NCBI GenBank assembly: GCA_016199305.1
Contig: JACQGZ010000063.1
Location: 1-11,408 of the forward strand
Direction of reading: 5' to 3'
Source of the DNA: Armatimonadota bacterium
GTDB lineage: Bacteria > Sysuimicrobiota > Sysuimicrobiia > Sysuimicrobiales > Humicultoraceae
DNA: 11,408 nt
This document shows positions 1 to 11,065 of this stretch, piece after piece. Under the pieces are notes generated by a model. The model saw only the letters and a program-made list of their open reading frames with translations. It did not search any database and was not told the DNA's origin. Both the position numbers and the translations under genes were made by a program. Within the stretch, counting starts at the first letter, position 1; the number at the start of each line of letters is the position of its first letter.

Positions 1-506
1 ACGGCGGCACCGCCGTCGTCGGCGACTTCACCCTTCGCGTCGACGGACTCCCCGTCACCAGCGGCGCCACCAATGCCTTCTCCGCGGGCAGCCACACCGT
101 CAGCGAGGACGACCCCAGCCCCGGCTACAGCGGCTCCATCAGCTGTACCAACGGCGCCTCCGGCGGTCTCAGCGTTGCCTTCAGCCTCGCCCTCGCTCAG
201 AACGTCAGCTGCACCATCACCAACGACGACGTGGCGCCCACGCTGACGGTCACCAAGGTCGTCATCAACGACGAGGGCGGCACCGCCGTCGTCGGCGACT
301 TCACTCTCCGGGTGGACGGCACCCCCGTTATCAGCGGGGCCGTCAACACCCTCTCCGCTGGCAGCCACACCGGCAGCGAGGACGACCCCAGCCCCGATTA
401 CGCCGGCTCCATCAGCTGTACCAACGCGGCCTCCGGAGGTCTCAGCGTCACCTTCGTACTTCCTCCCGGCGAGAACGTGACCTGCACTATCACGAACGAC
501 GACGTG
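1..506 (+). repeat. Tandem 273-bp repeats encoding prealbumin-like domains
   Basis: Two consecutive copies with a 273-bp (91-codon) period: the motif caccgccgtcgtcggcgact occurs at 8 and again at 281. Both copies encode GGTAVVGDFTLRVDG, later SISCTN and CTITNDDV. The first copy is cut by the window edge, so more units may lie upstream. Differences are mostly scattered substitutions. Confidence 0.9.
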
Positions 507-1868
507 CCTCAGGACCCCAACGACATCGACCTGGACGGGGTCCCCAACGCTTCTGACAACTGCCCCTCAGTATTCAACCCCGAGCAAGAGAACTTCGACG
601 ACGACCCGGACGGCGACGCCTGTGACCCCGACGATGACAACGACGGCTTCCTCGATGTTGCTGAGCAGTTTATGGGAACCGATACCCTCAACCGCTGCAA
701 CTTCACCACGAACCTCAACGACGAACCACTGGACGCCTTCCCGCCGGATACTAACGATTCAATGAACGTTGATATCTTCGATGTCCTCGCCATGAAGCCC
801 CACTTCGCCAGCCCGTTGCCCAACCCGGACTACAGCGCCCGCCACGACCTAGACGCCGACGGCGACGTGGACATCTTCGACGTCCTTCAGTTCAAGCCGT
901 ACTTCGATACTACCTGCACCCCCAGCCCACCGCCGGACCGCGACCGCGACGGCATCATTGACGCCTTCGATAACTGCGTCAAGACACCCAACGCCGATCA
1001 GGCGGACGCCGACGACGACGGCGTAGGCAACGTTTGCGACAACTGCCCCTCCACACCCAACGCGGCCCAGACCGATAGCGACGGCGACAGTCGCGGCGAC
1101 GCCTGCGACAACTGCCCCTCCACACCCAACGCCGCCCAGACCGATAGCGACGGCGACGGCCGCGGCGACGCCTGCGACAATTGCCTCTCTATCCCGAACT
1201 TCGCCCAGACCGACGGCGACGGCGACGGCCGCGGCGACGCCTGCGCCAACTGCCCCTCCACGCCCAACGCCGCCCAGACCGATAGCGACGGCGACAGTCG
1301 CGGCGATGCCTGCGACAACTGTCCCTCCACACCCAACGCCACCCAGACCGACGGCGACGGCGACGGCGCCGGTGACGTCTGTGATAACTGCCCCTCCACA
1401 CCCAACGCTTCCCAAGCCGATGGGGATGGCGACGGTCGCGGCGACGCCTGCGACAATTGCCCTTCTATCGCCAACGCCGCCCAGACGAATACCGACGCGC
1501 TCCTGAAAGCCAGCGGCGCCACCATCGGCGGAGCGCCCCTGCCCGCCGACGCTCAGGGAGACGCCTGTGACACCGATGACGATAACGACGGCTTCAGTGA
1601 CGTCGCCGAGGTGTTCATGGGCACGAACCCCCTGGACAACTGCAACGCCGACTCAACCGCCAACAACGAATCGCCCGACGCCTGGCCCGTCGACTTCGAC
1701 GACGACCGCGATGCCGACATCTTTGATGTGCTGGCGATGAAACCACACTTCGCCAGCCCGTTGCCCAACCCGGACTACAGCGCCCGCCACGACCTAGACG
1801 CCGACGGCGACGTCGACATCTTCGATGTGCTGGCAGTCAAGCCCCACTTCAATAAGAGCTGCACGTAA
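1..1868 (+). CDS. Secreted surface protein with prealbumin-like repeats, thrombospondin type 3 array and two dockerin-like modules (5' partial)
   Basis: The reading frame is open from base 3 to the TAA at 1866-1868 and enters from outside the window, so the start and any signal peptide are missing (621 residues visible). Domains in visible residues: two prealbumin-like (SpaA/CnaB-type beta-sandwich) repeats at about 1-78 and 79-168, each with paired Cys in SCTN and CTITND; a short type 3 repeat at about 172-212; calcium-loop module A, loops at 249-260 and 282-293; eight thrombospondin type 3 units at 323-525 (pattern DNCPSTPNAAQTDSDGD); calcium-loop module B, loops at 564-575 and 597-608, ending NKSCT. 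Asp-rich loops imply Ca2+-stabilised extracellular structure (family knowledge). Having one module inside the chain and one at the end is unlike its neighbours, which have one each. The GTG at 231 is an internal Val codon, not the start. The partner and precise function are unknown. Confidence 0.88.
   Translation, partial: GGTAVVGDFTLRVDGLPVTSGATNAFSAGSHTVSEDDPSPGYSGSISCTNGASGGLSVAFSLALAQNVSCTITNDDVAPTLTVTKVVINDEGGTAVVGDFTLRVDGTPVISGAVNTLSAGSHTGSEDDPSPDYAGSISCTNAASGGLSVTFVLPPGENVTCTITNDDVPQDPNDIDLDGVPNASDNCPSVFNPEQENFDDDPDGDACDPDDDNDGFLDVAEQFMGTDTLNRCNFTTNLNDEPLDAFPPDTNDSMNVDIFDVLAMKPHFASPLPNPDYSARHDLDADGDVDIFDVLQFKPYFDTTCTPSPPPDRDRDGIIDAFDNCVKTPNADQADADDDGVGNVCDNCPSTPNAAQTDSDGDSRGDACDNCPSTPNAAQTDSDGDGRGDACDNCLSIPNFAQTDGDGDGRGDACANCPSTPNAAQTDSDGDSRGDACDNCPSTPNATQTDGDGDGAGDVCDNCPSTPNASQADGDGDGRGDACDNCPSIANAAQTNTDALLKASGATIGGAPLPADAQGDACDTDDDNDGFSDVAEVFMGTNPLDNCNADSTANNESPDAWPVDFDDDRDADIFDVLAMKPHFASPLPNPDYSARHDLDADGDVDIFDVLAVKPHFNKSCT
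801..868 (+). repeat. 68-bp perfect direct repeat, copy 1 (module A)
   Basis: Positions 801-868 are identical base for base to 1746-1813, 945 bp downstream and in the same frame. The stretch encodes the end of loop 1 (HFASP), the NPDYSARHD linker and most of loop 2. Perfect third-codon identity points to a recent duplication or gene conversion. Confidence 0.95.
969..1574 (+). repeat. Array of eight 69-bp units (thrombospondin type 3)
   Basis: Units start at 969, 1038, 1107, 1176, 1245, 1314, 1383 and 1452, an exact 69-bp (23-codon) period. Each encodes DNCPSxPNxxQxDxDGDxxGDxC. The units at 1038 and 1107 differ at only three of 69 bases, which points to recent expansion or homogenisation, while the first unit is clearly divergent. 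At 1245 the leading Asp is replaced by Ala. The last unit carries a longer insert (TNTDALLKASGATIGGAPLP) before GDAC. Such arrays form Ca2+-binding, disulfide-linked wires in thrombospondins and bacterial outer-surface proteins. Confidence 0.93.
1746..1813 (+). repeat. 68-bp perfect direct repeat, copy 2 (module B)
   Basis: Second copy of the repeat at 801-868. The identity ends within the GDV codons of the second loop. Recombination between the copies would delete or duplicate a 945-bp segment containing the whole type 3 array while keeping the frame (315 codons). Confidence 0.95.
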
Positions 1869-1922
1869 CCACGGGGGCACCCGCACGCCCCGCAGCCCTC
1901 AGCCTTAGCTTCAGCGAGCCCT

Positions 1923-1952
1923 TAGCGCCGGCGCTTTTCCGCGCCGGCGCTA
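1923..1952. terminator. GC-rich hairpin between convergent genes
   Basis: A perfect 12-bp inverted repeat (tagcgccggcgc, 1923-1934; gcgccggcgcta, 1941-1952) encloses a ttttcc loop. It lies 55 bp after the stop of the upstream plus-strand gene and 17 bp from the stop of the minus-strand TPR gene. No T-run follows on either strand, so this is a non-canonical bidirectional terminator or a transcript-end stabiliser. Confidence 0.75.
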
Positions 1953-1968
1953 GGGCACAATCTCAGAC

Positions 1969-2769
1969 CTACCGGGCCTCTAACTCTTCGATGAATTGTT
2001 CAATTTGAGCTTTGGAGTCAGGATCAGTGGTGAGGGAGAGAGCCCTGTTCAGGTCAGAGATCGCCTGCTCAACCTCCTCAAGCGCCGCCCGCGCGAGCCC
2101 TCGATTGGCGTAGGCCAGCGCGTCATTCGGGTCCAGCTGGATGGCCTTATCCAGATCAGCTATAGCCTTCTCGTAATCCGCCAGGAGAACGTAGGCCACT
2201 CCTCGGTTGTAGTAGGCCTCAGCCTGGCTGGGGTCCAGGGCGATAGCCCTGTTGTAATCGGCTATGGCGCTGTCTAAGTCGCCCAGGTCGTGGTACGTGG
2301 TGCCCCGGTTGCGGTAGGCCAGCGCATTCGCCGGGTCCAGCTCGATCGCCTGGTCGTAATCGGCTATCGCCCGCTCCAGATCGCCCAGTTCGTCATACGC
2401 ATTCCCGCGATTGATGTAGGCGGAAGCGTCTTCGGGGTCAAGATCGATCGCTCTGTCCAGGTCGACTATCGCCTCTTCAAGCTGCCCCAGCTCAACACGC
2501 GCGGCTCCACGGGCTGAGTACGCCTTCGCAAAGCCACTATCCAGCTCGATGGCCAGGTTGAACTCCGCAAACGCCTCCTCCCAGCGCTCTTCTACGGCCA
2601 ATTCCAGCCCTCTGTCGTAGTGCTGCTGCGCCTCTGAAGCCCCCGTGCAGGCCGTCGCCAGGAGAATCAGCAAGAGAGCCACTCCCGCGGCGGCGACAGC
2701 GGAGCCCGACGGCAGGAAGCCGCGCCTTCCGGTGGCCTTGGGCTCGGCAGGTCGTGCTGGCTGACTCAT
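1969..2769 (-). CDS. TPR-repeat membrane-anchored protein or lipoprotein
   Basis: 266 residues from the ATG at 2769, beginning MSQPARP. A basic stretch (KATGRRG) precedes a hydrophobic segment at about 23-40 ending LLATAC. Cys41 fits a relaxed lipobox, so the protein is a lipoprotein or has one N-terminal membrane segment. Residues from about 46 hold six tetratricopeptide repeats of about 34 residues with W/Y-x-x-A, A-Y-x-N-R-G and A-I-x-D-x-x-x-A-I-x-L-D-P signatures. TPRs form a helical protein-protein scaffold, here outside the membrane; no catalytic domain is present. A GTG at 2808 would add 13 residues. The ATG was preferred because the extension adds no signal feature, but neither start has a strong ribosome binding site. 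The gene converges on the upstream surface-protein gene and diverges from the lipoprotein gene at 2889. Confidence 0.88.
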   Translation of the reverse strand: MSQPARPAEPKATGRRGFLPSGSAVAAAGVALLLILLATACTGASEAQQHYDRGLELAVEERWEEAFAEFNLAIELDSGFAKAYSARGAARVELGQLEEAIVDLDRAIDLDPEDASAYINRGNAYDELGDLERAIADYDQAIELDPANALAYRNRGTTYHDLGDLDSAIADYNRAIALDPSQAEAYYNRGVAYVLLADYEKAIADLDKAIQLDPNDALAYANRGLARAALEEVEQAISDLNRALSLTTDPDSKAQIEQFIEELEAR

Positions 2770-2830
2770 CGTTAACCTGTAAGAGAATCGGACCGGGTGA
2801 CGACTCACCCCGGCCGCTTTCCGGTCAATG

Positions 2831-2839
2831 CTAGCACGA
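2831..2839 (-). promoter_or_regulatory. Possible extended -10 for the TPR gene
   Basis: On the minus strand this reads TGCTAGCAT, a TGn-extended -10 (TAGCAT) without a clear -35 hexamer. It would start transcription near 2824, upstream of both candidate start codons. Weak evidence. Confidence 0.3.
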
Positions 2840-2850
2840 TTGAGCCACTC

Positions 2851-2879
2851 TCGACACAGAGTTCAGCCATCGCTAGACT
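2851..2879 (+). promoter_or_regulatory. Sigma-70-type promoter for the small lipoprotein gene, probably leaderless
   Basis: TCGACA at 2851-2856 and TAGACT at 2874-2879 are separated by 17 bp. The ATG lies at 2889, only nine bases after the -10, so the predicted transcript starts essentially at the start codon. No Shine-Dalgarno motif precedes the ATG, which agrees with leaderless translation. A 6-bp inverted repeat (gttcag 2861-2866, ctgaac 2878-2883) overlaps the spacer and -10 and might be an operator. Confidence 0.5.
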
Positions 2880-2888
2880 GAACGCAAC

Positions 2889-3353
2889 ATGCTGCGAAAA
2901 CTGACCATCCCCGTCCCTCTCCTTATCGTCGCCGTCGTCGCGATCGCCTGTAACGGCGGGTCTAGCTCGCCCACGCCCGGCGCTACGCTCACGCCCGAGG
3001 CCACCTCGGCAGTCAGCGAAACGCCAACGCCAGACGCCACGGCTGCGGCCGACAATACGCCGGTGCCACAGCCCACATACACTCCCGACCCCAGCCTTGC
3101 CGGCCTGCGCATCACGCCGCCGGACGACCTTGACGCGTTCCTAGAGCAGTTTGCCGGTATGGACATAGTCCAAGACCCGTGTACCGTTACCGCCCCCGGG
3201 CAGCGGGACTGCGGCGAGCACGGCATATACCTGCCGGACCCACCGCCGGCCGAAAACGTCCCCTGCGATATCGTGCTGGCGGACGGCGAGCCCGCCCTTC
3301 TACTCTGCACCGTCGAGCAGCCCAGCAGCCTCATCTACTATGAGATACCATAG
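2889..3353 (+). CDS. Small predicted lipoprotein with Thr/Pro linker
   Basis: 154 residues. The N-terminus MLRKLTIPVPLLIVAVVAIAC is a lipoprotein-type signal with Cys21 as the lipidation candidate. Residues 22-70 are a low-complexity Thr/Pro/Ser/Ala linker typical of a tether spanning the cell wall or surface layer. The C-terminal part (about 71-154) is a small domain with four Cys (DPC, RDC, VPC, LLC), likely paired into two disulfides outside the cell. I do not recognise the fold. The start is fixed by the signal peptide and an apparent leaderless promoter. No dockerin-like module is encoded in frame, but a fragment resembling one lies just downstream out of frame. An antisense frame covers most of the gene but has no signal peptide or recognisable domain. 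Confidence 0.75.
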   Translation: MLRKLTIPVPLLIVAVVAIACNGGSSSPTPGATLTPEATSAVSETPTPDATAAADNTPVPQPTYTPDPSLAGLRITPPDDLDAFLEQFAGMDIVQDPCTVTAPGQRDCGEHGIYLPDPPPAENVPCDIVLADGEPALLLCTVEQPSSLIYYEIP

Positions 3354-3387
3354 AAAGTCCACGAATAGGGCGAAGGATACCCCCACC

Positions 3388-3435
3388 CGCTACGCCCGGG
3401 ACGTCGATGGCGACGTGGACATCCCCCACTGCTGA
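3388..3435 (+). pseudogene. Apparent relict of a dockerin-like module
   Basis: A short frame encodes RYARDVDGDVDIPHC and then stops (TGA 3433-3435). It resembles the YSARHDLDADGDVDI core of the modules in the neighbouring genes. In the 24 bases from 3400 to 3423, 22 match positions 853-876 of the first gene. There is no start codon and the frame differs from that of the lipoprotein gene ending at 3353, so this looks like a decayed tail. Chance similarity of a short Asp-rich stretch cannot be excluded. Confidence 0.45.
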
Positions 3436-3507
3436 CAAACCGATTTTCAACTTGGGCTGCGCATAGGGATACGACCTTGCGACGCATAGGCCGGCCGGCA
3501 AGAGTAG

Positions 3508-3513
3508 TAGAAT
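3508..3513 (+). promoter_or_regulatory. Candidate -10 element for the gene at 3568
   Basis: TAGAAT is the same -10 hexamer as in the well-formed promoter at 6474-6502 and lies 54 bp before the start codon. The position 17 bp upstream (catagg) is not a good -35, so either the promoter is weak or activator-dependent, or the element is not functional. Confidence 0.4.
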
Positions 3514-3567
3514 GGAGCATCAGGCCGTTAGCTGTCCCAAGCGCATGTCATGTAGGAAAGGATAAGC

Positions 3568-5373
3568 ATGAGGATGCTGCGGGCAGCGCCAGCTCTGGCT
3601 CTGCTATTCATCGTCGGCGTGATGGCCGCATCACGAGCCCCCGCCGAGGCTGAAGGCGACAACCGCCTCCTCTCCCTACACGCTGTATCCGACGCGCCGC
3701 TTGCCACCATCGCCTTGCGCCGTCCTCACCCCGACCATTCTGCGCTCGGCAACACGCTGAACTCCAACACCGTCCCTTGCGACAAAGAGATCGACACCGC
3801 CGGCAGCATCGCGGGGGTCTCCTTCGTCGCCGCCCAGGACAACGTCATCTGCACCAACGCCGATATCGACCTCTACGAGCAGGGCGGAGAGCAGTACGTG
3901 GTCCAGGCCGGCGGTCAGGAGGCTGCGTTTACCATCACCCGTATCGGCGTGGACGGCACCCCAACGCCGATCACGCAGAAGGCGTGGCTACAGACCAACA
4001 CCTACACGCCGGACGTCAAGGCGTTCAAGCAGGGGGCCGGGCGCTACATCGCCCTGGCACTTGAGCGGACGGCGCTGGGCAACGCCGCTTGCGGCGTCGT
4101 CATCGTCGACGTCACCAACGCTCCCAGCACGCCGATCGTGGACCAGTTTATCGGGGCCGACTGGTGCGATGTCCACAACGTCTTCGTTGAGGACGACGCC
4201 AGCGGGGACGGCAAGTACATCTACCTCACCGCTGACCTCCCCAATGACCTGCGTGTGCTAGACATCGGCAACCTGAGCAACATCAGCGAGATCGGCCGCT
4301 ACACTCATCCCGAGGCCAGCAACGACAACTACGTGCACGACGTCACTGTCATCGACCACGGCGGCTCCATCGGACGCCGCGTCTACGTCTCCTACTGGGA
4401 TGCTGGACTGATGATCTTGGCTGCCACGCACCTGACGCCGGGCGTGGTAGAGGCTGGGAGCCCTAACCAGCCCTTGAACGCGGACCACAGCATCGACCCG
4501 CCGGGATTCCTGACTCATCACGCCTACCCAAGCGATGACGGGAGCCGAGTCTTCATCCAGGACGAGTTCCTGCAGAGCTCGGGAGAGGAGCCCGTGCAGA
4601 TGTGGGACATCAGCTCACCGGGGAGCCCCAGCTATGTGGACGGCATCGCCCTGGGCAGCGCCCTGATGCCCGTGGTCAACCCCGCTCACAACCTCCTGGT
4701 GGACGGCGACAGGCTCTACGTGGGATGGTACAAGGCCGGCCTACAGGCCTTCGACTTCGAGGGGGCCGGATTCGCGGACAGGCCCATCTATCACCAAGTT
4801 CAAACGGAGACCGCCGACGATGTATACGACGGCGCCTGGGGCGTCCGCCTCGCCACCATCGGGACCACCAGCTATATCTTCCAGTCGGACCGCCGGTACG
4901 GGCTGATAATAGATGCCACGCTAGAGTCCCTCGACAGCGACGGCGACGGGGTTCCTAACACGTCCGACAACTGCCCCACGGTACCGAATCCGGGACAGGC
5001 CAACGCCGACGGAGACGGCTGGGGTGACGCCTGCGACAACTGCTCGGCGGTGGCTACCTCCTGGTCCGTTTCGCCGGGGGACGATGACTGCGACGGGTTC
5101 ACGACAGCCACGGAGAGCTTCGTGGGCACCCTGGCACTGGTCGCCTGCGCCGCCACCACGAGCGTGGGCGACGAGGACCCGGACCCGTGGCCGGCGGACT
5201 TCGACGACGACAAGGATGTCGACATCTTCGACGTCCTGAACATGAAGCCGTTCTTTGGCAGCCCCGGTTCCAACCCCTACAGCGCCCGCCATGACCTCCA
5301 GGGCCAGGACGGCGACAACGACATCTTCGACGTGCTCACGATGAAGCCGTTCTTCCTCAAAAGCTGCGGGTAG
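3568..5373 (+). CDS. Secreted LVIVD-type beta-propeller protein with type 3 repeats and C-terminal dockerin-like module
   Basis: 601 residues. A signal peptide covers about 1-28 (ending APAEA). Residues about 90-450 show repeated short beta motifs like the LVIVD family ([65 protein letters not shown]), pointing to a bacterial surface beta-propeller. Such propellers usually mediate binding; no catalytic signature is seen. Thrombospondin type 3 motifs follow from 456 ([15 protein letters not shown]). From 505 comes the shared module: DCDGF, GT...C, loop 1 at 544-555 ([12 protein letters not shown]), linker NPYSARHD, loop 2 at 576-588 ([13 protein letters not shown]) and the end KSCG. Loop 2 has 13 residues rather than 12. 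The ATG is supported by GGAAAGGA seven bases upstream and by the signal peptide. The next gene starts 96 bp downstream with its own promoter. Confidence 0.87.
5221..5312 (+). repeat. 92-bp near-identical repeat of the module, copy in the propeller gene
   Basis: Positions 5221-5312 match 9776-9867 with four mismatches, including an unbroken 27-bp identity (5242-5268 with 9797-9823). The stretch covers loop 1, the linker and the DLQGQD start of loop 2. This links the propeller protein more closely to the 1126-residue protein than to the gene lying between them. Confidence 0.9.
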
Positions 5374-5396
5374 CTCGCGGCGGCCCTCCGCGCCGA

Positions 5397-5424
5397 TTGA
5401 CAGCACGAGCAGCGGGCCTATAAT
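5397..5424 (+). promoter_or_regulatory. Consensus sigma-70 promoter
   Basis: TTGACA at 5397-5402 and TATAAT at 5419-5424, both perfect consensus, with a 16-bp spacer. It starts 24 bp after the preceding stop codon, so the gene at 5470 has its own transcription start (predicted near 5431). A weak 5-bp hairpin (5376-5380 with 5388-5392) lies between the stop codon and the -35. Confidence 0.88.
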
Positions 5425-5433
5425 AGTTGCGCA

Positions 5434-5455
5434 TCGCGAGGGGGTTAGCTCGCGA
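5434..5455 (+). promoter_or_regulatory. 5' leader stem-loop next to the ribosome binding site
   Basis: A perfect 7-bp stem (tcgcgag 5434-5440, ctcgcga 5449-5455) encloses ggggttag. It starts about three bases after the predicted transcription start and ends at the first A of the Shine-Dalgarno AAGGGGAG (5455-5462), eight bases before the ATG at 5470. It could stabilise the mRNA 5' end or modulate ribosome access. Confidence 0.6.
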
Positions 5456-5469
5456 AGGGGAGCGGCGGC

Positions 5470-6450
5470 ATGAGGTTGGTCAGATTCGCAGCGTTTAGTG
5501 CGCTGGCGGTTGCGGCACTCTTTTCCGCCGGCCGCGCCGAGGCCGTCGATGGCGGCATCAGCGGCACGGTGAGGGACGGCACCGGCGCCCCCATCGGGGG
5601 CGCCTTCGTCGAAGCGTTCGCGTTCTCCGGCTGCTGTGACAGCGGCTCCGCCCTCACCGGCCCCGACGGCACCTACACTATTAGCGGCCTGACGCCGGAC
5701 TCCTACCGCGTCTACGCCTCCGCGGACGGATACGTGGCCGAGTTCTACGACGACACCCTTGACATCACCCAATCGACGCCGGTGGTGGTTAGCGACGGCA
5801 CCGTCACTCCAGGTATCGATTTCGCCCTGTCCAGCGGCGGGAGCATCAGCGGCGTCGTCACCGAGGACCCCTCCGGCGCGCCCATAGAGGGCGCGATCGT
5901 GGACGCCATACTGGCCGAAGGGTGCTGCTCCTTCGGGGTCGCGGTGACAGCGGCTGACGGCACTTACACCATCGAAGACCTCTCCGGCACCTCGTACCTC
6001 GTATTCGCCTCGGCCCAGGGCTTCGCCTCCGAGTACTACGACGACACCACGGACGTCTCACTCGCTACCGCGGTGTCCGTGACCGTAGGCGCCAACACGC
6101 CGGGGATTAACCTCGCCCTCTCGTCATGCGGCAGCACCTGGCCCACGCCCGCCGGCGATGATGACTGCGACGGGTTTATGACGGCGACGGAGGAGTTCGT
6201 CGGCACCGTCCCGATGGTGATGTGCGCCACCGACTCGACTCCCAACAACGAGTCGCCCGATCCCTGGCCTGTGGACTTCGACGACGACCAGGACGTCGAT
6301 GTGTTCGACATCCTGGCCGCCAAGCCGCACTTCAACACCTCCCCACCGAACCCCGGCTACAGCGCCCGCCATGACCTAGACGCTGACAGCGACGTGGATA
6401 TCTTTGACGTACTGAAGACGAAACCGTTCTTCGGTCAGAGCTGCGCCTGA
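5470..6450 (+). CDS. Secreted protein with two carboxypeptidase-regulatory-like domains and C-terminal dockerin-like module
   Basis: 326 residues. The signal peptide is about 1-25 (ending GRAEA). Two homologous carboxypeptidase-regulatory-like (transthyretin-like beta-sandwich) repeats lie at about 29-121 and 125-218; each has a SG-V-D-SGAPI-GA start, an A-DGTYTI-L strand, and an E-F/Y-YDDT-D tail ending G-I-ALSS. Both contain a vicinal Cys-Cys pair (55-56 and 152-153) after Gly, unusual for this fold. The shared module follows from about 230: [25 protein letters not shown], loop 1 at 269-280, KPHF, linker NPGYSARHD, loop 2 at 302-313, KPFFGQSCA. The thrombospondin array found in its relatives is absent; only the DCDGF lead-in remains. 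No enzyme domain is present, so a structural or binding role is inferred. The ATG has the Shine-Dalgarno AAGGGGAG eight bases upstream and a consensus promoter. Confidence 0.88.
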   Translation: MRLVRFAAFSALAVAALFSAGRAEAVDGGISGTVRDGTGAPIGGAFVEAFAFSGCCDSGSALTGPDGTYTISGLTPDSYRVYASADGYVAEFYDDTLDITQSTPVVVSDGTVTPGIDFALSSGGSISGVVTEDPSGAPIEGAIVDAILAEGCCSFGVAVTAADGTYTIEDLSGTSYLVFASAQGFASEYYDDTTDVSLATAVSVTVGANTPGINLALSSCGSTWPTPAGDDDCDGFMTATEEFVGTVPMVMCATDSTPNNESPDPWPVDFDDDQDVDVFDILAAKPHFNTSPPNPGYSARHDLDADSDVDIFDVLKTKPFFGQSCA

Positions 6451-6463
6451 GCGGGCAGCCCGC
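6451..6463 (+). terminator. Short hairpin immediately after the stop codon
   Basis: gcggg (6451-6455) pairs with cccgc (6459-6463) around cag, starting directly after TGA, with no T-run. The first 13 bases after the stop of this gene and of the 1126-residue protein gene (9929 on) are almost the same (gcgggcagccc), so the homologous unit extends past the coding end. Confidence 0.4.
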
Positions 6464-6473
6464 CCCTGCCGCT

Positions 6474-6502
6474 TTGACAAACATTCGTGGCGGTGGTAGA
6501 AT
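6474..6502 (+). promoter_or_regulatory. Consensus sigma-70 promoter
   Basis: TTGACA (6474-6479), a 17-bp spacer, then TAGAAT (6497-6502). It lies only 24 bp after the stop of the previous gene and 46 bp before the ATG at 6548. A small 5-bp stem-loop (tagcg 6513-6517, cgcta 6521-6525) follows near the predicted transcript 5' end, recalling the leader hairpin of the gene at 5470. Confidence 0.87.
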
Positions 6503-6547
6503 CCACCATCTCTAGCGACGCGCTAAAGGACTCTAGCCGGGGTCACC

Positions 6548-9500
6548 ATGGGCAAGTTCCAGGCCGGCGCGATCCTACTGCTCGCAGTAGCGATCGCCAC
6601 CGCCGCGGTCATATTACTCGCGTTCGACTCCTTTGGCGGCCGTGACGAGCCGGCCGCAGCGGCGGTCCAAGCCAGCGATCAGGTCACCCCGGACTCGCTT
6701 CTCGGCCCGGCCGTCATTCTTGGGACAGGCCAGCTCGCCGACTGCAGCGCCCGCCTCTCGGAGATCCCCGCCGGCATGGATGTCTTCCAATCCGACGCCC
6801 AGATTTCCGGCGAGATCCTCGGCAGCCCGTTCGGACCGGTTGATCTGAACGGCCCCACCACGGTCAACCGCGGCGCCCCCGGCGATGCCAACGGGAACGG
6901 CCGCACCGACATCCCGGTTGAGATCGTCGCCATGGAGCTCGCCGGCAACGCCATCACCATCAAGGCCGGGCAGAACTTCGGCCTGTCGCCATCGACCGGC
7001 ATGGTGGAGTCTCTTGGAGTGGGGTCTCCTAGTGACGACAGCTTCCCCGTGAGCAGCTTCTTCGATGTCTTCACCGAGATAACCATCGGTACCGCCACCT
7101 ACCACACGGATGGGCCCGTCCCCATGGAGGCCACCATACCCGCCGACCCGCAGGGCGTTGGCTGTCTGCCGCCCCTGGGCCAGACCTACCAACCGCCCCC
7201 CAATACTCCGCCGGTGCCGATCTTGGACAGCCAGGGCCAGCAGGTCGGCACCCTCACCCACGCCCGGCACGTGCCGGAGCGGCCCCGCAGCATCGACGAC
7301 ATCAAGCTGGACGAGCTCAACAACCAGCCCCGGGCTGGCGCCGTGGTGACCCTGCACCGCGGCTTCGGCTGCCTGGGCCACCCTCTCGGCGCCGGCGTCA
7401 CCGGCCACGACGGCCAGTTCACCTTCCGCCCCCTGACGGCGGGCCAGTACTCCGTCCAGGAGCAGACGCCGCCCCTGGGGCTGGGGCCCGACCCCAGCGG
7501 CGCCTGCACCGATGTGGACCACACCGGGCCCTACCCGGAGGCCAGCGCCCCGGTCTCCCTTAACCCGCCTCCTGACGCCGGCGAGGATTTCTTCCCCTCC
7601 TGCGGCCTCTTCACCGCCCAGATCGGCCAGCAGACCGGGACAGTTGAGATGGAAGGTGACCCCCTCAACCCCACCCGCGTCCAGCGGGGCACCCCGGACC
7701 CGGTGACGGGCACCATCCCCATCGAACTCGTCGCCCTGAGCCTTGTAAGCGCCGACGGGCTGATTCAGGTCGGGCTGAACCCGGCCCAGCCGTCCACCGG
7801 CAGTATGACCGTCACGCCCATGGCCCCCGCCGGTACCTACGACAGCACCCTGAACGTCTTCCCCCTGCTCATATTCTCTCAGCAGCTCACCCTCCACACC
7901 GAGCAACCGGTGCCGCTGCGGTCTACGGCCCCCTCTACCGAGGCTCCGCCCTTCAACCGCTACTTGAGAGCCGACCACCTCAACATACCGCTGCTGGACC
8001 CGGACAACCAGCCGGTGGGCCAGCTGACCCTGGCCATCCACAAGCCCAAGCCGCCGGGCGAGAAGTGCGTCATCATCCGCAACCCGCCGGGGCCGCCGCA
8101 GGAGATCAGCTTCTCCATCGAATTCGGCGGGCCCAGCAACGCCATCTTCCACGCCGCTGATATCCTCAACCCCGGGCCCGTTGTGGCCAGGACCTGCGCC
8201 TCCCTCGGACTGACTCCCACCGGCTGCGCCTTCGCCTCGCCTCAGGACGATCTGCGGGCCCTATCCTACGGCTTCGACTTCTCCACCGCCGTCCCCGCTG
8301 AGCCGCCCAAGGTCTTCTCCCCTGACCCTATCACCGTGGGCGTGCCCGGAACCGATGTCAACATCGAATCCACCTGCCCGCCGGCAACGGACGCACCCGC
8401 CGATTTCTATCGGACTTTCCTCACCGGCACCAACATTCAGGAGTTCGATGGCAACGGCGTTCTGGGCTGCCTCACCAGCTTCCCGCTGGGCCTGGTGGAG
8501 CCCGGCGCGCCGCCTACCGGTGATAACGCCGACGCTCTGGGCGAGCTGCCCACCGGCGACCCCGTGTTCTTCACCCTGGCGCCCGGCTCGCCGAGCCTCA
8601 CGTTGCTGCTCGGCGGCCCCTACACCAGCGCCCACATCTTCAAGAGCGTAGCTGGGGTGGTCTCAGTCTACGCTACCCCGGCCCAGCTGGGCCTGACCGC
8701 GACCGACGTTGTCGACGGCATCTGCCTGCGGGAGTCGGACGGCATCTTCGACGCCACGCTGGACGGCCTGTTCGACACCCCACCCGACCTCCTGCAGTTC
8801 AGCCTCAGCCGCACGTCACCAACGCTGGGGCTCCTTCCCGCGGCGATACCGCCGTACAACGGCGCCGACCAGTTCATCCCGCGGACCGTGGTAGGTGGTC
8901 TGCCCATCCGCGTGAATACCGCCGCGGACCACGGCCTGCAAGACACGCTCAGTGGGACCGTCAATGACGACTTGGACGCCATGAAGTGCCCCTTCCTGGA
9001 CACGGACAGCGACGGCGTCCCCGACCCGCTGGACACAGGCGATGGCACCTACCTCAAGGGCACTATCTCCGGCGCCCTGACCGGGAGCGTTACCCTCGGC
9101 GATCCGCCAGACACGGTGCAAGTCGTGGGCGGTACCGGCGGCGGCACGGCCACCGCCAGCTGCCCCGCCACGGCCAGCAGCGGCGTCACTGGCGTCTCGG
9201 TCGCCCTGGACGAGGGGGAGATAGCGAATCTCGGCTGCACGGCCAGCGCCAGCGTCACGGTGGTCGTCGGTCCCGTTGTCGTCACATTCGGATCGTTCAC
9301 CGCCACGGTGCCCGCGGGCAGCACGGTAACGATATCGGAAGAGCCCACCTCCTGCGGCAGCCTGGCAGGCACGTTCGAGGTCAGTCACAGCCCCGGCACC
9401 GTGAACGTCATCATCAGCAGCCCCAACATGGCACCGCCGGTGACGCTGACGCCAGGCGGCACGTTCCTGGACTGCGACGCCGACGCCGTCTTCGATCAGG

Positions 9501-9928
9501 TGGACAACTGCCCCACCGTCTCCAACCCCAGTCAGGCCGACGCAGAGCCGGACGGCGTGGGCAACGCCTGCGACAACTGCCCCAACTGGCCCAACGCCGC
9601 CCAGGGCCTTCCCCCCTGGCCGGTCCCGATGACCGATCCCGATTGCGACGGCTTCAACACGACGGTCGAGACGTTCCTGGGCACGCTGCCCCTGGTCCAG
9701 TGCGCCGCCGACACCACGACCAACAACGAGGCTCCGGACCCCTGGCCGCCGGACTTCGACGACGACAGGGACGTCGACATCTTCGACGTGCTGAAGATGA
9801 AGCCGTTCTTTGGCAGCCCCGGTGCCAACCCCTACAGCGCCCGCCACGACCTCCAGGGCCAGGACGGTGACGTGGACATTTTCGACGTCCTGGCGATCAA
9901 GCCGTTCTTCGGCAAGAGCTGCACGTGA
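6548..9928 (+). CDS. Large secreted multidomain protein with duplicated N-terminal domain and C-terminal dockerin-like module
   Basis: 1126 residues. An N-terminal hydrophobic segment (about 7-27) is a signal peptide or membrane anchor. A domain at about 85-242 (V-RGAP, IPVEIVAMEL, I-AGQ, FFDVFTEI, TDGPVPMEAT, ILDSQGQQVGTLTHARH) recurs at about 355-500 (V-RGTP, IPIELVALSL, FPLLIFSQ, TEQPVPLRST, LLDPDNQPVGQLTLAIH): an internal duplication. Between them, about 255-310, is a CnaB/SdrD B-like beta-sandwich (GAGVTGHDGQFTFRPLTAGQ). Residues about 500-1010 are beta-rich and unassigned. A type 3 repeat section (VDNCPTVSNPSQADAEPDG) precedes the module, with loop 1 at 1069-1080 (DFDDDRDVDIFD), linker NPYSARHD, 13-residue loop 2 at 1101-1113, and the end KPFFGKSCT. 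No enzyme signature is visible. The ATG is preceded by a weak GGGG and a consensus promoter, and is supported by the signal sequence. Confidence 0.87.
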   Translation: MGKFQAGAILLLAVAIATAAVILLAFDSFGGRDEPAAAAVQASDQVTPDSLLGPAVILGTGQLADCSARLSEIPAGMDVFQSDAQISGEILGSPFGPVDLNGPTTVNRGAPGDANGNGRTDIPVEIVAMELAGNAITIKAGQNFGLSPSTGMVESLGVGSPSDDSFPVSSFFDVFTEITIGTATYHTDGPVPMEATIPADPQGVGCLPPLGQTYQPPPNTPPVPILDSQGQQVGTLTHARHVPERPRSIDDIKLDELNNQPRAGAVVTLHRGFGCLGHPLGAGVTGHDGQFTFRPLTAGQYSVQEQTPPLGLGPDPSGACTDVDHTGPYPEASAPVSLNPPPDAGEDFFPSCGLFTAQIGQQTGTVEMEGDPLNPTRVQRGTPDPVTGTIPIELVALSLVSADGLIQVGLNPAQPSTGSMTVTPMAPAGTYDSTLNVFPLLIFSQQLTLHTEQPVPLRSTAPSTEAPPFNRYLRADHLNIPLLDPDNQPVGQLTLAIHKPKPPGEKCVIIRNPPGPPQEISFSIEFGGPSNAIFHAADILNPGPVVARTCASLGLTPTGCAFASPQDDLRALSYGFDFSTAVPAEPPKVFSPDPITVGVPGTDVNIESTCPPATDAPADFYRTFLTGTNIQEFDGNGVLGCLTSFPLGLVEPGAPPTGDNADALGELPTGDPVFFTLAPGSPSLTLLLGGPYTSAHIFKSVAGVVSVYATPAQLGLTATDVVDGICLRESDGIFDATLDGLFDTPPDLLQFSLSRTSPTLGLLPAAIPPYNGADQFIPRTVVGGLPIRVNTAADHGLQDTLSGTVNDDLDAMKCPFLDTDSDGVPDPLDTGDGTYLKGTISGALTGSVTLGDPPDTVQVVGGTGGGTATASCPATASSGVTGVSVALDEGEIANLGCTASASVTVVVGPVVVTFGSFTATVPAGSTVTISEEPTSCGSLAGTFEVSHSPGTVNVIISSPNMAPPVTLTPGGTFLDCDADAVFDQVDNCPTVSNPSQADAEPDGVGNACDNCPNWPNAAQGLPPWPVPMTDPDCDGFNTTVETFLGTLPLVQCAADTTTNNEAPDPWPPDFDDDRDVDIFDVLKMKPFFGSPGANPYSARHDLQGQDGDVDIFDVLAIKPFFGKSCT
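9776..9867 (+). repeat. 92-bp near-identical repeat of the module, copy in the large protein gene
   Basis: Partner of 5221-5312, with four mismatches in 92 bases. Both encode the variant linker without the extra Asp (NPYSARHD) and the 13-residue DLQGQDGD loop. Confidence 0.9.
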
Positions 9929-10460: not shown

Positions 10461-10489
10461 TTGACGGGTTCTCATTGTTATGGTATAAG
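10461..10489 (+). promoter_or_regulatory. Sigma-70-type promoter for the small secreted protein
   Basis: TTGACG (10461-10466), 17-bp spacer, TATAAG (10484-10489). The predicted transcript starts near 10496, which rules out a TTG at 10475 as start codon and supports the ATG at 10529, preceded by GGGAGGG (10514-10520). Confidence 0.8.
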
Positions 10490-10528
10490 AAAGCTGTTTT
10501 TCACGCCGTCTTCGGGAGGGATGCGGCC

Positions 10529-11065
10529 ATGAAGAAGCTACTGGTCGCCCTGGGCCTGGCGATCCTGGTGAGCGCGGCGCTGTGGCTGCCCACCGGCGCC
10601 GACCATCAAGTCGGCATCAGCGCCAGCGTCACCGTCAAGAACGTCTGCGTCACCGTCAGCCCTACCTCCATCGACTACGGCACCCTGGACTTCGAGGCGA
10701 GCCAGGCATCAAATACCCTGGCTACACCCGTAACCTTTCTCGCTACCAACTGTGGCACCGCCAGCGAGAGCTTCCTGGCCAGAGGGGCCAACGCCACGGC
10801 GGGGTCCACTACCTGGACCATCCAGGCGGCAGCCCCCAACTGTGCGACGCCGGATATCAACCTGTTCCGGCACAGCCTGACGAGAACAGCGCCGACCGCC
10901 GACACAGAGAAGTTCCTGACCACCTCTAACACTTCATGGGTCACCGGTATCGGCGCCACCTCCACCGCCTCCTTCAATACCAAGCTCTATATGCCCTGCC
11001 ACGGCAGCGGCGGGGCCGGCTCCACCGCCGCCACCTCTGTCACCGTCGTCGCCACCCAGCCGTAG
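10529..11065 (+). CDS. Small secreted beta-rich protein of unknown function
   Basis: 178 residues from the ATG at 10529. The signal peptide MKKLLVALGLAILVSAALWL ends near TGADH (residue 25). The mature part is rich in Thr, Ser and Ala with alternating beta-type strands (ISASVTVKNVCVTVSPTSIDYGTLDFEASQAS ... split here by function, not domain) and four Cys (VCVT, TNCG, PNCA, MPCH). The pattern of an N-terminal strand followed by SIDYGTLDF is reminiscent of WxL- or spore-coat-U-like surface beta-sandwiches, but I do not recognise a defined family. The start is chosen from the Shine-Dalgarno GGGAGGG eight bases upstream, the signal peptide, and a promoter lying downstream of the longer possible start. 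It lacks the dockerin-like module of its neighbours. Confidence 0.8.
   Translation: MKKLLVALGLAILVSAALWLPTGADHQVGISASVTVKNVCVTVSPTSIDYGTLDFEASQASNTLATPVTFLATNCGTASESFLARGANATAGSTTWTIQAAAPNCATPDINLFRHSLTRTAPTADTEKFLTTSNTSWVTGIGATSTASFNTKLYMPCHGSGGAGSTAATSVTVVATQP

Follow-up and report, generated by a model that had tools for sequence, protein, structure and literature searches.

A dockerin-type tail on diverse exported proteins and candidate membrane-anchored cohesins in Dehalococcoidia-like bacteria

A constant tail on different exported proteins raises the question of what the tail is for. The DNA analysed here (hereafter the window, 11,408 nucleotides) is the whole of contig C10 of the draft assembly G000 (1.58 Mb, 343 contigs, 69% complete) and encodes four exported-type proteins with five copies of a module of about 105 residues (Table 1). 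An earlier note on this DNA had placed copies ending at about 921, 1865, 5370, 6447 and 9925, and all five were located there on the plus strand. It is considered probable that these tails are dockerins that would dock onto membrane-anchored cohesins, keeping diverse exoproteins on the cell surface by means of a private code. Scanning the window for Rfam families and tRNAs gave no hit.

Table 1. Features of the window (all coordinates in nucleotides)
Feature	Coordinates	Strand	Description
Protein 1	3..1868	+	5' end cut by the contig start; SpaA_2 prealbumin-like domains, TSP3 repeats, two dockerin-type modules
Module copy 1, internal in protein 1	603..920	+	Dockerin_1 29.6 bits, over the cut-off
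Module copy 2, C-terminal in protein 1	1539..1865	+	Dockerin_1 27.1 bits, over the cut-off
TPR-repeat protein	1969..2808	-	Lipoprotein-like N terminus by eye; strand opposite to the module genes
Small lipoprotein-like ORF	2889..3353	+	No Pfam match
Protein 2	3568..5373	+	Signal-peptide-like N terminus, LVIVD-repeat propeller, TSP3, C-terminal module
Module copy 3 (protein 2)	5047..5370	+	One additional residue in the second loop
Protein 3	5470..6450	+	Signal-peptide-like N terminus, two carboxypeptidase-regulatory-like domains, C-terminal module
Module copy 4 (protein 3)	6130..6447	+	Dockerin_1 22.7 bits (22.9 including neighbours); structure predicted
Protein 4	6548..9928	+	1126 aa; N-terminal hydrophobic segment, TSP3, C-terminal module
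Module copy 5 (protein 4)	9614..9925	+	One additional residue in the second loop
Exported-looking ORF	10475..11065	+	196 aa, no Pfam match

The module runs from a TSP3-like loop (DxDxDGF...ExFxGT) through an invariant Cys and a Pro/Trp stretch to two F-hand repeats of the form [20 protein letters not shown], and ends in a second invariant Cys. The five copies share 43 invariant columns, the other four being 49–71% identical to copy 1, and the second loop is one residue longer in two of them (ends 5370 and 9925). The motifs quoted earlier as common to the copies stand as a consensus but are not invariant, since copy 1 reads DAFPPDTNDS and copy 4 VFDILAAKPHF. Searched over the whole assembly at E ≤ 1, a five-copy profile found just these five places, which are its own members (E 7.6e-58 to 1.7e-53).

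The IFDVLxxKPxF helix, by which the earlier note had set the module apart from dockerins, found no support as such a distinction: IFDVLxxKP corresponds to positions 10–18 of a dockerin F-hand, and both Dockerin_1 and solved dockerins match the module. The Pfam Dockerin_1 cut-off was passed by three of the five copies, the third only with its neighbours counted (by hmmscan, protein 3 reached 19.7 bits, below 22.9), and Dockerin_1 gave no match for the remaining two. Across 75 modules, calcium-ligand position 12 is Asp in both hands of every module, and position 1 is always Asp in one hand and Asp or Asn in the other; Asp or Asn occupies position 3 in 66 first and 53 second hands, and position 5 in 61 and 63. 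The predicted structure of copy 4 (pLDDT 89, pTM 0.78) likewise matched solved dockerins, the best match being a type II and not a type I dockerin. The subtype residues of type II dockerins are Phe at 20, Asn or Gly at 21, Met at 10 and Ala at 17 (PMC5590126); the ten hands of the window have Phe20 throughout and Asn or Gly at 21 in six, and differ from the Met and Ala of the Bacteroides cellulosolvens type II form in having Ile or Val at 10 and Lys at 17 in all ten. The outcome that would have refuted the earlier note, a match to nothing but ordinary type I dockerins with a known cohesin partner, did not arise: the best structural match is of type II, and any partner is a candidate at the level of experiment. 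The terminal Cys singled out by the earlier note is a real difference from dockerins, as is the TSP3-like part. Judged by profile and model, the module is a dockerin. Its two F-hand repeats, predicted to bind calcium, come after a TSP3-like loop of bacterial type and one Cys, and a terminal Cys closes the module. A disulphide between these two invariant residues may staple the ends together.

The N termini were called by eye, as signal-peptide-like in proteins 2 and 3 and as a hydrophobic stretch in protein 4. The earlier description of the four cargoes as unrelated mostly stood; the exceptions are the TSP3 repeats that Pfam assigns to proteins 1, 2 and 4 and the sole match in a cargo-versus-cargo BLASTP, a weak carboxypeptidase-regulatory-like one between proteins 3 and 4 (E 0.006). 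The cargo of protein 4 is mostly without assignment, with a weak CarboxypepD_reg-like match, and the duplicated novel domain once ascribed to it was not seen in a BLASTP self-comparison at E 1e-3. Metagenome homologues of protein 3 (P0002–P0011 and P0013) carry the module.

To follow the module beyond the window, 57 further stretches around module or cohesin matches were examined. The module ended within 3 residues of the protein end in 65 of 69 module-bearing proteins, counted over proteins from the window and from genomes of G047's class whose frames close with a real stop codon (this count, the calcium-ligand counts above and the membrane-helix counts below omit frames open at the 3' end as well as loci from archaea, planctomycetes and Anaerolineaceae). 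More than one module per chain was seen at L134 (3615–5471, minus strand, three) and L148 (1029–2501, plus strand, two). Among 56 module proteins, Pfam recognised subtilases (3), papain-type proteases (2), a penicillin amidase, a GDSL lipase, FG-GAP (4) and BNR/propeller repeats, as read from the first 25 of 53 families plus complete lists for 50 proteins. No glycoside hydrolase or carbohydrate-binding family appeared in those 50 complete lists, the remaining six proteins being covered by the first 25 families only; the nearest approach was one LacZ_4 domain (E 9.5e-4). The earlier proposal that a constant tail on varied cargo marks a targeting or assembly system gains support from this placement and from a co-occurring candidate receptor, and the system itself is what we infer from them.

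That receptor was sought among cohesins. The earlier note had reported none in the window, and they lie outside it, on contig C307 of the same assembly, where genes for four cohesin domains stand in tandem; these pass the Pfam cut-off (PF00963) and have the cohesin fold. The cohesin proteins are small (298–469 aa) and end in a C-terminal helix and a basic tail.

Both contigs sit uneasily in their bin. Their tetranucleotide correlations with 29 unmasked bin contigs are 0.64 (C10) and 0.66 (C307), versus 0.946–0.954 for bin contigs of 9–14 kb (n = 5) and at least 0.78 for shorter ones, while C10 and C307 correlate at 0.80 with each other. With stretches of G043, G044, G045 and G047, C10 correlates at 0.78–0.86 and C307 at 0.73–0.77 (0.65 and 0.64 with G046), and gene type may explain part of this, as the compared stretches carry the same gene types. 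Module and cohesin were absent from 42 other genomes of the bin's order, class and phylum, leaving only the bin positive; the searches at the three ranks covered one identical set of 43 genomes, so the larger ranks add no wider distribution. The bin also lacks a sortase, whereas all 13 other carriers searched have one. On composition, C10 and C307 appear foreign to the bin and most likely come from a misbinned Dehalococcoidia-like organism, transfer of the two contigs being the lesser alternative. Given the doubtful binning, the pairing of C10 with C307 is presumptive, and the identity of the module is not weakened by it.

A genome_contigs search gave long module matches in five Chloroflexota MAGs (L013–L019, L021, L022) and partial ones elsewhere; seven of the nine long-match loci are titled Dehalococcoidia. 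When ten genomes were searched with a cohesin profile that includes rows from G044 and G045, cohesins were found in four of six Chloroflexota source genomes (31 in G044, 8 in G045, 14 in G046 and 21 in G047), and none in G043, the Anaerolineaceae genome G049 or two planctomycetes. Weaker matches, 12 and 3, came from two Bathyarchaeota source genomes. Two loci from Bathyarchaeota MAGs (L020, L026) encode archaeal proteins whose paired F-hands are of the DVDIFD type, and weak cohesin matches occur in these genomes too.

The earlier note had asked for a receptor that co-occurs with the module, and cohesins turned out to be associated with it. An even sample of 294 genomes was taken from a larger group within G047's class and searched at E ≤ 1e-5. 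The module was found in 39 and cohesin in 44: 28 genomes have both, 11 the module alone, 16 cohesin alone and 239 neither. Scoring stopped at 16 module candidates per genome, a number that four genomes reach. The Fisher p value, a statistic that ignores relatedness, is 3e-19, or 6e-17 after removal of five seed genomes. With the limits on best E tightened to about 1e-15 and 1e-20, nine genomes retained both, eight the module only and two cohesin only.

The two partners differ in their C termini. By a crude hydropathy rule, a C-terminal membrane helix with a basic tail is present in 19 of 26 strong cohesin-only proteins and 22 of 37 cohesin-only proteins in all, as against 2 of 57 dockerin-only and none of 12 two-domain proteins. 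This last group combines cohesin and dockerin in one chain, two of them in the order cohesin-cohesin-dockerin, like adaptor scaffoldins. The same counts bear on the idea of a sorting or secretion signal like LPxTG, PEP-CTERM or the type IX C-terminal domain, which would explain a C-terminal position on varied cargo and sits well with the sortases present in 13 of 14 genomes searched (all 13 other carriers, with none in the bin itself). It is scarcely credible, as the helix and basic tail are so rare on dockerin-only proteins, the module is found inside chains and in tandem as well, and the window proteins have neither LPxTG nor a membrane helix in their tails and no type IX or other sorting-signal family among their Pfam matches.

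The loci read hold at most two cohesins per chain. Multi-cohesin frames with weaker matches exist elsewhere in the class, with six in a 2025-aa frame of G188:C148 and five each in G241:C7 and G152:C5; G241 and G152, with their scaffoldin-like frames, lack the module. More than one cohesin type is thus present in the class, and the association may partly concern those others. In G044 and G274, a histidine kinase and an OmpR-type response regulator lie near tandem cohesin genes on the other strand (L082, 6556–8599, minus; L086, 10172–11994, minus). At L084 (G045) and L087 (G225), cohesin genes lie downstream of similar genes, enolase at L084 and a gene with a like end at L087.

These layouts leave some room for the reading that the module, though of dockerin fold, has a receptor different from the C307-type cohesins, either another surface protein or a cohesin class outside the profile. 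Cohesin went undetected in 11 of the 39 module genomes, G043 among them, and the recognition residues described below imply a partner without naming it. Such a receptor is nevertheless unlikely in view of the association across genomes, the membrane anchors found on cohesins and missing from dockerins, and the 12 adaptor-like proteins that join the two domains.

Positions 10, 11, 14, 15, 17 and 18 of each hand, which we take to be the recognition positions, were compared with control positions 2, 4, 6, 7 and 8. In 29 modules, the two hands of one module agree at 0.60 of recognition positions versus 0.24 after shuffling (0 of 20000 shuffles), and at 0.17 versus 0.11 of control positions (30 of 20000 shuffles reach the observed value). 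The result holds in 12 dissimilar modules after thinning (0.53 versus 0.19). Recent homogenisation of the two hands is unlikely as its cause, because control positions agree little, if still above shuffles. Passages of PMC8063739 state that dockerin F-hands bear cohesin-contacting residues and that matching hands permit two docking orientations.

The recognition residues are also largely particular to each genome. Over 64 modules from eight genomes with at least three each (one duplicate and genomes with fewer omitted), agreement within and between genomes was 0.53 and 0.19 at recognition positions, 0.45 and 0.25 at variable loop positions, 0.47 and 0.26 in the linker, and 0.52 and 0.44, the smallest difference, in the TSP3-like part; each difference exceeds 2000 label shuffles. 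The genome-specific trend is therefore strongest at recognition positions and extends beyond them. All five window copies have IF or VF and KP, most G044 copies carry forms of DVLAYIPVFN, and G145 uses forms of DVLSYIPVFN; G045, G047 and G214 are more mixed (0.34–0.39 within genome).

The LVIVD protein offers a comparison with cargo held constant. Among the best 120 homologues listed for it, 23 (the window's own included) carry the full module, with a mean identity of 66% in the cargo, 45% in the TSP3-like part and 18% at recognition residues; in the 22 besides the window's, the hands match at 0.62 versus 0.19 shuffled (0 of 20000). A recognition face that changes fast yet stays symmetric is as expected under selection by a docking partner that varies by lineage. 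Among P0176–P0249, homologues that lack the module end in carboxypeptidase-regulatory-like domains, in a membrane helix followed through by RRRR as in P0176, or, like P0249, have no tail. One LVIVD propeller cargo thus seems to have several attachment solutions, the varied tails suggesting that the tail is exchangeable.

A partnerless calcium-binding, TSP3-like structural cap spread by duplication would account for the conserved calcium ligands, for the TSP3 repeats often found alongside (PF02412 in 22 of the 56 module proteins) and for within-genome likeness in loops and linker. Such a cap would have no need of residues particular to a genome or of identical ones in the two hands, and the within/between contrast that peaks at recognition positions and is least in the TSP3-like part, together with the divergence of those positions on conserved LVIVD cargo, makes it very unlikely.

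Docking of dockerin tails onto cohesins recalls the cellulosome of the Clostridium thermocellum type, in which exported proteins with C-terminal dockerins meet anchored single cohesins and adaptors with cohesins and a dockerin. All three elements recur here. Unlike in the cellulosome, the Pfam lists show no glycoside hydrolase or carbohydrate-binding family, and the loci read hold no more than two cohesins in a chain, unlike the frames with five or six cohesin matches in other genomes of the class; with no cellulases and no CBM scaffoldin in the Pfam lists seen, a cellulosome reading was rejected. Non-cellulosomal cohesins and dockerins were reportedly known from all domains of life by the time of Peer et al. 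in 2009.

The nearest relative in the parts of the literature consulted is the type II dockerin of Pseudobacteroides (Bacteroides) cellulosolvens Cel48 (PDB 2y3n; PMC8063739), from which the module differs by the TSP3-like loop in front, two invariant Cys and a cargo that is not a cellulase. Passages on ANME archaea (PMC9012536) describe a non-cellulosic set, with a proposed role in fixing proteins to the outer layer of the cell, with one dockerin and several cohesins in a chain; it resembles the present one in lacking a cellulosic role and in joining cohesins and dockerin, and differs in being archaeal, in having ABC-transporter binding proteins as common cargo and in holding up to five cohesins per chain. 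According to passages on the uncultured cloacimonadotal Ca. Stygibacter (PMC8542988), exported peptidases bear C-terminal dockerins as here, together with glycoside hydrolases, and one 3,755-aa scaffoldin carries tandem cohesins and CBMs where small single-cohesin anchors are seen here. According to a 2016 study, UNI-1 and five Anaerolineae genomes have no cohesins or dockerins (PMC4877987), and neither Chloroflexi nor Chloroflexota are named in a survey of cellulosome bacteria from 2024. In the open-access literature, judged by titles and passages and with few subscription papers covered, no dockerin system of such kind was found for Dehalococcoidia or Chloroflexota. Features that look new are its extent within Dehalococcoidia, membrane anchors bearing a single cohesin, a dockerin of the Cys/TSP3 form and a symmetric code largely private to each genome.

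In the proposed mechanism, the dockerin tail would plug, after export, onto a cohesin domain outside the membrane, displayed by a small protein of the C307 type that a C-terminal helix and basic tail would hold in the membrane. The cell would thereby retain propellers and adhesive repeats, and in relatives proteases and lipases, on its surface, and chains that combine cohesins with a dockerin would serve as adaptors that enlarge the assembly. Because both F-hands bear like recognition residues, the tail can probably dock in two orientations (a dual-binding mode), and because many genomes use their own residues on most tails, the two partners probably evolve together, forming a private code.

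A bolder version, offered tentatively, holds that Dehalococcoidia lineages run a cellulose-independent docking system in which arrays of membrane-anchored single cohesins hold dozens of dockerin-tagged proteins (proteases, lipases, propellers and adhesins) and a lineage-rewritten private address excludes neighbours; the caution reflects the within-genome trend also seen in loops and linker and the multi-cohesin frames in the class. Such an address, if real, would stop exoproteins from docking on neighbouring strains, both dockerin halves being rewritten together. Cohesin–dockerin pairs, which are known for the most part from bacteria that degrade cellulose, are widely favoured as engineering tools. 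They rank among the strongest known protein interactions, as passages of PMC8063739 put it. If the reading holds, these genomes would supply many natural candidate orthogonal cohesin–dockerin pairs and a route to studying specificity switching in a symmetric binding code, and would suggest how the mostly uncultured Dehalococcoidia keep secreted enzymes to themselves.
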